Source of the DNA: an uncultured Gammaproteobacteria bacterium | Lineage (GTDB): Bacteria > Pseudomonadota > Gammaproteobacteria > Poriferisulfidales > GCA-002705445 | Assembly: GCA_913031205.1 (NCBI GenBank) | Contig: CAJWEM010000009.1 | Coordinates: forward strand, 1 to 35,570 | Length of the DNA stretch: 35,570 nucleotides | Reading direction: 5' to 3' | Shown: one piece after another, positions 27,878 through 30,997 of the stretch | How the letters are laid out: the number at the start of each line of letters is the position of its first letter | Numbering within the stretch: position 1 is the stretch's first letter | Position numbers and translations under genes: made by a program | The notes under the pieces: generated by a model | Told to the model about the DNA's origin: nothing | What the model saw: the letters and a program-made list of their open reading frames with translations, nothing else | The model's database searches: none

Positions 27878-28609
27878 CTAATGAACGTCTTTCCAGAATT
27901 CTTTTTTTGTATAATACGCTAAAATTGTAAAAATAAATAGAAATAGTAACACCCAAAAACCCATTGAATATCTTTTTAATTTAGCGGGTTCTGAGACATA
28001 TACCAAAAAATTTGTAATATCGTTAGTAAGTTGCTTATATTCTTTATCACTAAAAGAACCTTCGGAAGTTTTCTCAAAACTTATAGGATTATTGTTAGAA
28101 TCTAAAACAGCTTTTTGGCCACCCTGTAGCTCAGCCAAAATATGAGGCATCGACGTGTTGGGATATGCAACATTATTATAGCCAGTAACCGAGCTATCAT
28201 CTTCGTAATAGGTGTTTAATTTAGCGTATATGTAATCTGCCCCTTTTGACCTTGCGGTTAAGCTCAAATCAGGAGGAAGTGCTCCAAACCATTGAATTGC
28301 ATCAGCCTCTTTCATAGGTATTGTCATAGTTTCGCCAATTTTTTTGTTTGCAAAAATTAAATTTTTGGAAAATATTGCTTCATCAATCCCAAGGTCTTTT
28401 GCTAAGGTATTCATTCTCATGTATTTTAAAGAATGGCAACCGCTGCAGTAGTTGACATAATATTTTGCTCCGCGTTGCAGAGAGGCTTTATTGCTTATAC
28501 TATTTGATGCTTTATATTTTTGTGCAAGCTCACTTTTTTGGCTCGCAGCAAATGAAATATTTACACTGAATAAGAAAAAAATAAAAAATAAAAAAATATT
28601 TTTCATCAT
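27878..28609 (-). CDS. petC: Cytochrome c1 of the bc1 complex
   Basis: Signal peptide; CSGCHSLKYMRMN heme c site; C-terminal TM anchor. Confidence 0.95.
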   Translation of the reverse strand: MMKNIFLFFIFFLFSVNISFAASQKSELAQKYKASNSISNKASLQRGAKYYVNYCSGCHSLKYMRMNTLAKDLGIDEAIFSKNLIFANKKIGETMTIPMKEADAIQWFGALPPDLSLTARSKGADYIYAKLNTYYEDDSSVTGYNNVAYPNTSMPHILAELQGGQKAVLDSNNNPISFEKTSEGSFSDKEYKQLTNDITNFLVYVSEPAKLKRYSMGFWVLLFLFIFTILAYYTKKEFWKDVH

Positions 28610-30189
28610 CCAGTCACCCTTTCCGGGACTTCTTTCTCTTCATTTAAATTTGTGTATAAAGGTGATATTGTCATAAACAATATAAAGGCGCAGACAAGGG
28701 ATAGGCCAGTAATTATTAAAATGTAATTTTCAAAGTTAATTCTAGTTAAATCATAAATCGTAATTAATGATATCATTGAGCCTGCAAATATATAGCTGAA
28801 AAAGTTACCACGCGATTTACTATAGAAGAATAACAAGGCAAAAAATATGAAATACATTTCACTAAATCTAAGAGCCAAAGCACTATAAAGAGGTGTAGGG
28901 GCTTTAACGCCAAGATAACCCAGAATTAAGAAGCCAGCAACAAACACGAAAAGATTTATTCTGAACAGCATACTTCTATATCTAATAGATTTTATTGGAT
29001 TATTGTCAATCCAAGGTAAGAAAAATAGAACAACAATCGATAATGCCATTGCAAGAGCTCCAAAAGCAGGGTCAGGAATTGCCCTTAGAATAGAATAAAA
29101 TGGAGTGAAGTACCAAACAGGTGCGATGTGTTCTGGAGTAACTAATGGGTTTGCAGGGATAAAGTTTGCATGTTCCAAAAAGTAGCCTCCCATTTCTGGC
29201 ATAAAGAAAACCGTTGTAGAAAAGAGAAACAAAAACACACCAATTCCAACAAAGTCTTTTACTGTATAATACGGATGAAACGGAACACCATCTAAAGGGA
29301 CCCCGTTTTCATCCTTATATTTTTTAATTTCGACGCCATCAGGATTATTTGATCCAACTGTATGAAGAGCAGCTAAATGCAAAATAACAAGAAGTAAAAT
29401 TACCATTGGCACTGCGACAATATGGAGCGCAAAGAACCGAGTAAGTGTTGGGTCTGAGATTGCGAAATCACCTCTAATCCAAACCCCTAGTTCAGGACCA
29501 ATAAAAGGTATTGTTGTGAAAAGATTAATAATTACCTGTGCTCCCCAATATGACATCTGTCCCCATGGCAGCAAATACCCCATAAAAGCCTCTGCCATTA
29601 GAGCTAAATATATAAAAACACCAAAAAGCCAAATCAGTTCTCTTGGCTTTTTAAATGAGCCATACATCAAAGCTCTAAACATATGGAGATAAACAACTAC
29701 AAAGAAAGCCGAAGCTCCGGTGGAGTGCATATATCTAATAAGCCACCCTAAATTTACATCACGCATAATAAACTCGACCGAATCAAATGCTAGTTTTGCA
29801 TCTGGTTTGTAATGCATTGCCAAAAAAATTCCAGTGAAAATTTGTAAGAAAAGAATCATAAAAGCAAGTGAGCCAAAAAAATACCAAAAATTGAAATTTT
29901 TTGGAGCATAATAATTAGTTAAGTGGTCTCTGACGAAACTTAATATTGGAAGTCTTTCGTCAACCCAACCAATTACTCCACTAGCACTATTAGAAGCGGA
30001 ATTAGCTTTTGACTTTAATTGATCATAATACTTTGTAGCAATTTGAGCAGCATCATCTAAATTAGCTGTACCAGTACTTTTTCTGACAAAAACATCAGTT
30101 CCTTTGATATTTATGTACATTTGCCACTTATTACTTCGCTCACGAGTATGGAGAGTAATTTCACCATCTCTCAAAAGTACTTTTTCCAA
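28606..30189 (-). CDS. petB: Cytochrome b of the bc1 complex, with a ~70-aa N-terminal extension; TTG start
   Basis: Core VIGWVDERLP...YYAPKNFNFWYFFGSLAF...RYMHSTGASAFFVVVYLHMFR...GYLLPWGQMSYWGAQVI...HIVAVPMVILLLVILHLAALH. Extension MEKVLLRDGEITLHTRERSNKWQMYINIKGTDVFVRKSTGTANLDDAAQIATKYYDQLKSKANSASNSASG; GGGAGA SD before TTG 30189. Confidence 0.95.
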   Translation of the reverse strand: MEKVLLRDGEITLHTRERSNKWQMYINIKGTDVFVRKSTGTANLDDAAQIATKYYDQLKSKANSASNSASGVIGWVDERLPILSFVRDHLTNYYAPKNFNFWYFFGSLAFMILFLQIFTGIFLAMHYKPDAKLAFDSVEFIMRDVNLGWLIRYMHSTGASAFFVVVYLHMFRALMYGSFKKPRELIWLFGVFIYLALMAEAFMGYLLPWGQMSYWGAQVIINLFTTIPFIGPELGVWIRGDFAISDPTLTRFFALHIVAVPMVILLLVILHLAALHTVGSNNPDGVEIKKYKDENGVPLDGVPFHPYYTVKDFVGIGVFLFLFSTTVFFMPEMGGYFLEHANFIPANPLVTPEHIAPVWYFTPFYSILRAIPDPAFGALAMALSIVVLFFLPWIDNNPIKSIRYRSMLFRINLFVFVAGFLILGYLGVKAPTPLYSALALRFSEMYFIFFALLFFYSKSRGNFFSYIFAGSMISLITIYDLTRINFENYILIITGLSLVCAFILFMTISPLYTNLNEEKEVPERVTG

Positions 30190-30205
30190 AATATTCTCCC
30201 TAAAA

Positions 30206-30227
30206 AGTGTGTAAATAGTGTGATAAT
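30206..30227 (+). repeat. Tandem 11-mer pair AGTGTGTAAAT/AGTGTGATAAT
   Basis: Read directly; 18/22 identical to the pair at 30326-30347, exactly 120 bp away. Confidence 0.75.
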
Positions 30228-30266
30228 CAAAAAAAATTGTTTTAAAACATCTATTTATATTTTTAT

Positions 30267-30290
30267 ATTACCTTTCTTAAATGAGGTAAT
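30267..30290. repeat. Inverted repeat ATTACCT-N10-AGGTAAT
   Basis: Perfect 7-bp arms at 30267-30273 and 30284-30290, between the two tandem 11-mer pairs. Confidence 0.65.
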
Positions 30291-30325
30291 TTTTTATCAA
30301 AAATAAACAAAATTTACTTATTTTC

Positions 30326-30347
30326 AGTGTGTAAATAATGTGTAATT
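30326..30347 (+). repeat. Tandem 11-mer pair AGTGTGTAAAT/AATGTGTAATT
   Basis: Read directly; a related inverted copy ATTTTACACT lies at 30360-30369. Confidence 0.75.
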
Positions 30348-30415
30348 GAATATTACTTTATTTTACACTAATTGCAACATAAAAATGCTATATTTAATCT
30401 ATATTCCAAAATTAT

Positions 30416-30997
30416 TTAAACATTATCTTTATTAGCTGGTGCAGGCATTTCACCAACTACAATAGTATTATCATCTTCAAATCTGTAAGGTGGAACCTTT
30501 AAGTTTGCTCCCGCGGGGCTTCCATTTGAAACTTTACCAGCCATATCGAATTTTGACCCATGGCAGGCACAAAAGAAATTATTTTCGTCTGGGTTGTAAG
30601 CAGGATTGCAACCTAAGTGAGTACATACACCCTCAAGTACTAAGACTTCTGGTTTTAGTGATCTAAACTTGTTCTTTGCAAAGTCTGGCTGCTGTTCAGT
30701 GTTATCAGATAAAGGATCTTTATGCTTCGCCTCATTTGTGTTTATGCTATCAAGCATTTCTTTTGTTCTTTTTACAACCCAGATCGGCTTTTTCCTCCAA
30801 ATCAGATCAATTTTTTCGCCATCTTTTAACTCACTAATATCGACTTTAACAGGTGCTCCAGCAGCTTTAGCTTTAGCGCTTGGGGCCATAGATGAAAGAA
30901 ACGGCCACAAAGTAGCTGCAGCACCAGTTCCACCAACTAGTGTTAAACTACCAGACAAGAATTTCCTTCTGCTATTATCAGGATTGCCGCTAGACAT
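30416..30997 (-). CDS. petA: Rieske iron-sulfur subunit of the bc1 complex
   Basis: Tat-type SRRKFLSG N-terminus; CTHLGC and CACHGSKFD cluster motifs. Confidence 0.96.
   Translation of the reverse strand: MSSGNPDNSRRKFLSGSLTLVGGTGAAATLWPFLSSMAPSAKAKAAGAPVKVDISELKDGEKIDLIWRKKPIWVVKRTKEMLDSINTNEAKHKDPLSDNTEQQPDFAKNKFRSLKPEVLVLEGVCTHLGCNPAYNPDENNFFCACHGSKFDMAGKVSNGSPAGANLKVPPYRFEDDNTIVVGEMPAPANKDNV

Follow-up and report, generated by a model that had tools for sequence, protein, structure and literature searches.

Evidence for capture of an integrase arm-site region and arm-binding domain ahead of petB in a gammaproteobacterial bc1 operon

The gap between petA and petB in this small, AT-rich genome of a marine gammaproteobacterium is, with high confidence, the arm-site region of an integrase gene that was captured together with the 5′ end of int ahead of petB; we read it in this way because integrase relatives carry the same tandem sites with the same spacing, orientation and place. 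It is the arm-site half of an att region, with no recognisable core, rather than a full attP, and appears to be the counterpart of the stretch between the att core and the start of int. The original prediction had seen here an attP plus the 5′ end of int, left as a fossil or domesticated as a regulatory site. Homologous integrases bear out the arm-type sites and the int 5′ end but not, for want of a core, the full attP, and purifying selection on both the domain and the repeats favours domestication over a fossil. The window (the whole 35,570-nucleotide stretch analysed) is contig C9 of the source genome, G000 (908 kb, or about 0.9 Mb; 31% G+C). On it petA, petB and petC all lie on the minus strand, and the features of the locus, with their state in three related genomes (G007, G006 and G008), are as follows.

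27878–28609, minus strand: petC, cytochrome c1, overlapping the end of petB (PF02167).
28606–30189, minus strand: petB, cytochrome b of the bc1 complex with an N-terminal extension (PF00033, PF00032).
29980–30006, minus strand: linker rich in Ser, Ala and Asn, leading from the extension into cytochrome b (GVIGW...), placed from sequence and comparison of carriers.
30007–30189, minus strand: predicted captured integrase arm-binding (AB) domain, PetB residues 1–61, TTG start, assigned from identity to viral integrase N termini, a beta-beta-beta-alpha model and dN.
30196–30201, minus strand: ribosome-binding site AGGGAG, 6 nt ahead of the petB TTG, read from the sequence; AGGAG in G006 and G008.
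30206–30227, minus strand: proximal tandem arm-type pair, sense TATCACACTATTTACACACT, at −33 from the petB start codon and abutting the ribosome-binding site; kept in G007, G006 and G008, and like the −17 pair of viral integrases L156, L159 and L164.
30267–30290, no strand assigned: inverted repeat ATTACCT-N10-AGGTAAT, a hairpin of low stability (−5.1 kcal/mol); G007 has one compensatory change, G006 a different and stronger hairpin, and G008 no hairpin.
30326–30347, minus strand: distal tandem arm-type pair, sense ATTACACATTATTTACACACT, at −153 from the petB start; like the −197 / −190 pair near tRNA-Thr upstream of viral integrases.
30350–30377, minus strand: candidate promoter TTGCAA (30372–30377), 16 bp, TAATAT (30350–30355), a weak match (8/12) proposed from sequence.
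30360–30369, plus strand: single inverted half-site ATTTTACACT, sense strand AGTGTAAAAT; identical in G007, with decayed variants in G006 and G008.
30416–30997, minus strand: petA, Rieske iron-sulfur protein, the flank upstream of the insert (PF00355, PF10399).

Checked against the string, the 11-mer AGTGTGTAAAT occurs at 30206–30216 and again at 30326–30336, followed by AGTGTGATAAT (30217–30227) in one tandem pair and AATGTGTAATT (30337–30347) in the other. The two tandem 11-mer pairs are separated by 120 bp and read TTACACATTATTTACACAC and TATCACACTATTTACACAC in the petB sense orientation; all strings and positions originally reported, including the inverted partial copy at 30360–30369, were present. 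The longest exact direct repeat in the gap is 12, a length equalled in 14 of 400 dinucleotide shuffles, and the two-tandem-pair score was reached by none of the 400 shuffles and, among 236 tiles of the window, by 1. For the exact pair motif CACANNNNNTACACAC, expected about 0.27 times per genome, G000 has matches at the two gap sites and at one site in the tusE–prlC gap only. That the repeats arose by chance in AT-rich DNA is extremely improbable: the central inverted repeat is indeed at chance level, but the tandem-pair score is not, the repeats are conserved in four species and they match integrase sites. Nor are they common at random in this genome, in which the 11-mer occurs at its two gap positions and nowhere else.

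The sequences that they match lie upstream of homologous integrases, which carry tandem TTTACACA pairs in two clusters between tRNA-Thr and int, oriented as at petB. In L156, TTTTACACAATCTTTACACA stands at −197 and TTTTACACATATTTTACACA at −17 before int, with tRNA-Thr just outside the distal pair; the petB counterparts are ATTACACATTATTTACACAC at −153 and TATCACACTATTTACACAC at −33. Scanning 45 non-redundant integrases for CACA..CACA within 300 bp upstream of int, at spacings of 5 to 25 bp, gave a single peak at 11 bp, with 19 of the 45 carrying the repeat in the sense orientation, compared with 1 antisense and 0.58 in shuffled sequence. These sense repeats at exactly 11 bp (L120, L122, L124, L126, L128–L130, L133, L139, L144, L150–L152, L155, L156, L162, L177, L183 and L186) were found on plasmids, prophages and tRNA-borne elements. 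Because of their position upstream of int and the homology of the integrases, they are very probably the arm-type sites of this family, a prediction that would make CACA repeats spaced 11 bp before int a checkable general signature for the arm sites of a poorly described integrase family. As in an attP or attL, the petA–petB gap has tandem arm-type sites upstream of an int 5′ end, with the motif and orientation of the family.

The PetB extension itself points to the same family. A profile of four extensions matched two tyrosine recombinase genes among 369 gammaproteobacterial genomes, and the set was widened to 56 distinct loci of the integrase family from genomes, plasmids and IMG/VR contigs. 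The nearest relatives are the IMG/VR integrases L156, L159, L161, L164, L165 and L169, with 54–63% identity over 56–61 aa (E about 1e-21); against viral integrase N-terminal domains the extension has 62% identity over 58 aa. Both of the integrases scanned, L161 and L156, carry Phage_int_SAM_5, and L156 also carries Phage_integrase. These relatives surfaced only through the class-level profile search: direct searches of Pfam, NCBIfam, PHROGs and PDB sequences with the extension alone gave nothing useful, viral and genome contigs scanned directly with just the four extensions yielded no integrase, and neither the extension nor two family integrases found an integrase relative by tblastn in phage records. 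No donor integrase above 63% identity to the extension was found, and no family integrase in the searched genomes of the genus.

An AlphaFold2 model of the extension, built with the relatives in the alignment, is beta-beta-beta-alpha (strands 11–16, 19–27 and 34–38, helix 44–68; pLDDT 92), the fold described for integrase arm-binding domains (PMC8138268). Structure matches in BFVD include phage integrases at ranks 3 and 6 with non-significant E values, and Foldseek searches of the PDB with the extension models gave no significant match. MmoD, the top Foldseek match of a shallow model, was rejected as a fold relative when it disappeared with the better model. The core-binding and catalytic integrase domains are absent from PetB, in which cytochrome b follows the AB domain; by its sequence PetB is not an integrase.

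We compared 11 genomes of the genus, all metagenome-assembled genomes or single-cell assemblies; the deposits of the close relatives are 'uncultured Thiothrix sp.' AH-287-I11 and AG-447-N20 and one uncultured Gammaproteobacteria metagenome-assembled genome. The gap and the N-terminal extension of about 60 aa occur together in 4 of the 11, in independent assemblies that agree, with gap lengths of 226 bp (G000), 228 bp (G007), 220 bp (G006) and 147 bp (G008); in these carriers the extension begins at a TTG with a good ribosome-binding site. The other seven have neither, petB beginning a few bases past the petA stop codon or, in one case, slightly overlapping it. The concern that the gap might be conserved in relatives lacking the extension was therefore unfounded, the gap being found in carriers only. 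Outside the genus the petA–petB junction is short in eight members of the family or order (G012, with an unreadable junction, was left out), and the extension domain was not found in the other family and order members searched. In all, the unit is absent and petA abuts petB in the seven genus genomes and in every order relative with a readable junction, 14 genomes.

Both tandem pairs are retained in all four carriers despite changes in the length and sequence of the spacer, at −153/−33 from the start codon in G000, −155/−33 in G007, −137/−32 in G006 and −84/−31 in G008. One could suppose that the domain and the repeats each have a function but not together, the repeats serving another host protein or forming an RNA element of the petB leader and the extension acting in bc1 assembly or some other role. 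The proximal pair does abut the ribosome-binding site, both pairs would fall in the leader, and the fold resembles, at a non-significant level, some RNA-binding beta-alpha folds. We nevertheless regard this explanation as unlikely, given that in sequence, 11-bp spacing, orientation and place the repeats agree with the arm sites of the very integrase family to which the domain belongs, and that within the genus they are never found between petA and petB without the PetB domain. A CACACTTTTTACACA pair is found upstream of petA as well, but in G008 only (G008:C4:2782-2796, L053); the other species have just part of it.

Leaving aside the close pair G000–G007 (dS 0.34), every comparison of residues 1–41 of the extension gave a dN of 0–0.01 at a dS of about 1 or at saturation. 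In those same comparisons the cytochrome b core had a dN of 0.05–0.08, placing residues 1–41 under tighter constraint than cytochrome b itself. Invariant columns of the gap were concentrated within the sites (18 of 38, versus 32 of 173 elsewhere; p 0.0005), a count made with the G008 proximal pair misaligned by the alignment program. With dN near zero at nearly saturated silent sites and with conserved repeats, the captured unit is under purifying selection and appears to have a present function. A dead fossil, functionless att DNA and an int 5′ end retained because their removal would harm petB, would account for the loss of the catalytic and core-binding integrase domains and of any core site. 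It would not account for residues 1–41 remaining almost unchanged between distant carriers, or for the survival of both repeat pairs in four species whose spacers have diverged in length and sequence, and we consider it very unlikely.

The carriers do not form one clade. A tree of nine neighbouring non-pet genes groups G008 with G001 (100/100), a genome lacking the unit, and separates it from G000, G007 and G006, which form a clade of their own; a single clade of carriers was rejected; transfer, losses or two captures are therefore required. Because the two branches share fusion point and domain, the simplest reading would be a single capture and then transfer between species, although repeated loss may be an alternative. 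A short recent transfer tract around G008 petB was sought with sliding identities, which show none. The patchy distribution could also be explained if the extension still belonged to a minimal unit, mobile between strains with the help of, for instance, an integrase acting in trans, and was captured repeatedly, as the placement of G008 beside G001 and the rejected carrier clade would allow. Such a unit is highly improbable, however: both branches share the fusion point and 41 nearly invariant residues, neither core sites nor duplications were found, the searched genus genomes yielded no family integrase, and homologous recombination of petAB between species would be enough.

Captured arm sites and an int 5′ end remain our preferred reading of the gap, and the arms ATTACCT (30267–30273) and AGGTAAT (30284–30290) add no core to it. 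The central inverted repeat had been proposed as the attP core, a role that we reject: 312 of 400 dinucleotide shuffles contain a perfect inverted repeat as long as its 7 bp, it is absent in G008 and replaced by another hairpin in G006, and in the viral relatives the core would sit at the tRNA end, outside both repeat clusters. No other candidate for a core-type crossover site, with inverted sites around the crossover, was recognised in the gap, no target duplication was identified at the locus and no tRNA was found in the window. The inverted repeat is perhaps a weak terminator, or chance. The petA–petB gap of G006 (contig C7, L005) has a strong hairpin, GACAGTTTTT..AAAAACTGTCTTTT (−12.4 kcal/mol), with T residues after it, which is likely a terminator between petA and petB; the covarying hairpin of G000 and G007 is no more than weak. 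G007 shares the candidate promoter, as does G006 with TTGCAT in place of TTGCAA, and it was not recovered in a 9-of-12 promoter scan. Transcription from it would start at about 30343, within the distal pair.

These features suggest a bc1 subunit that may be able to bind its own gene. The N terminus of cytochrome b is cytoplasmic, and the bc1 complex is a dimer. We propose that the arm-site region and int 5′ end of an integrative element were captured between petA and petB, and that the N-terminal arm-binding domain of the integrase was fused in frame to cytochrome b and then domesticated. The cytoplasm-facing PetB domain would bind the tandem TTTACACA sites, one pair lying at the presumed petBC transcription start and the other directly ahead of the ribosome-binding site, and abundant PetB would repress petBC, in the manner of integrases with arm sites over their own promoter. 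That the AB domain of PetB still binds the tandem gap sites is likely, and the explanation as a whole, in which captured arm sites and AB domain were domesticated and autoregulate petBC, is one that we favour with slightly less assurance. For negative autoregulation of petBC, proposed by analogy, the chances seem about even. Evenly balanced, too, is the broader possibility that cytochrome b is a membrane-embedded, sequence-specific DNA-binding protein controlling petBC and possibly the tusE locus, a control that would tie transcription to the capacity for electron transport.

Hardly any exact site lies outside the gap, and any regulon would therefore be tiny. At the 3′ end of tusE (TusE/DsrC family), a tandem GTGTGTAAAAAGTGTGTAAA precedes the next gene (G000:C2:25016-25031, L215; also L090), one of its two copies overlapping the tusE stop codon; orthologous sites lie at G007:C3:37331 and G006:C2:61349 and are absent in G002 and G004, both of which lack the extension. 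This tusE–prlC site is a possible second target of the PetB domain. Elsewhere, at G000:C2:18570 (L052) and also in G007 and G006, CACAAATTTTACACA occurs amid DnaA-box-like TTATCCACA between dnaA and the rnpA side, a region that is probably oriC and a look-alike of the arm motif. We rejected DnaA boxes as the meaning of the gap repeats: the oriC site matches loosely, the sites of the gap depart from canonical boxes, and their match to integrases explains them better. At G000:C18:10519-10533 (L074), CACAACCTATACACA adjoins the 3′ end of a tRNA-like sequence and might be what is left of an element end, or a chance occurrence.

If this reading is correct, a core respiratory operon took up a mobile-element protein domain and its family's DNA sites as a single unit, which selection then preserved; should the domain bind, a bc1 subunit would regulate genes directly or anchor DNA to the membrane. 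We know of no bc1 subunit in either role, and full-text searches of open papers brought up no such case. In phage lambda, the adjacent arm sites P′1-P′2-P′3 repeat directly at intervals of about one helical turn, and neighbouring N-terminal domains occupy them. The direct repeats of the petB gap share this spacing of about one helical turn, but differ in sequence, form two separated pairs and take no part in recombination. Trigger enzymes of the PutA type are redox enzymes that use an N-terminal DNA-binding domain to repress their own operon. PetB would resemble them as a respiratory enzyme with a predicted DNA-binding domain and sites beside its own gene; PutA, however, is a peripheral flavoenzyme with a ribbon-helix-helix domain, whereas PetB, a subunit of bc1, is integral to the membrane and has captured both an integrase domain and sites.

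Among tyrosine recombinases, AB domains are described for the Tn916, lambda, P2 and SXT groups (Smyshlyaev et al. 2021, PMC8138268). That of PetB is like them in being an N-terminal, 60-aa beta-beta-beta-alpha domain with clear sequence homology to integrase N termini and cognate-type tandem sites nearby, and unlike them in being followed by no core-binding or catalytic domain and fused to a membrane-embedded cytochrome b. A regulatory parallel concerns IntS of the KplE1 prophage, for which repression of its own promoter, overlapping the arm sites in attL, has been measured (PMC2951348). The petB locus differs from intS in having neither core site nor recombinase and in driving a respiratory gene; as in the attL/attP arm region of intS, arm-type sites lie directly upstream of a gene encoding an arm-binding domain. 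Most integrases associated with tRNAs are predicted to repress themselves, their intergenic regions averaging 208–228 bp (PMC2951348), a length much like the 220–228 bp of the gap in three of the carriers.
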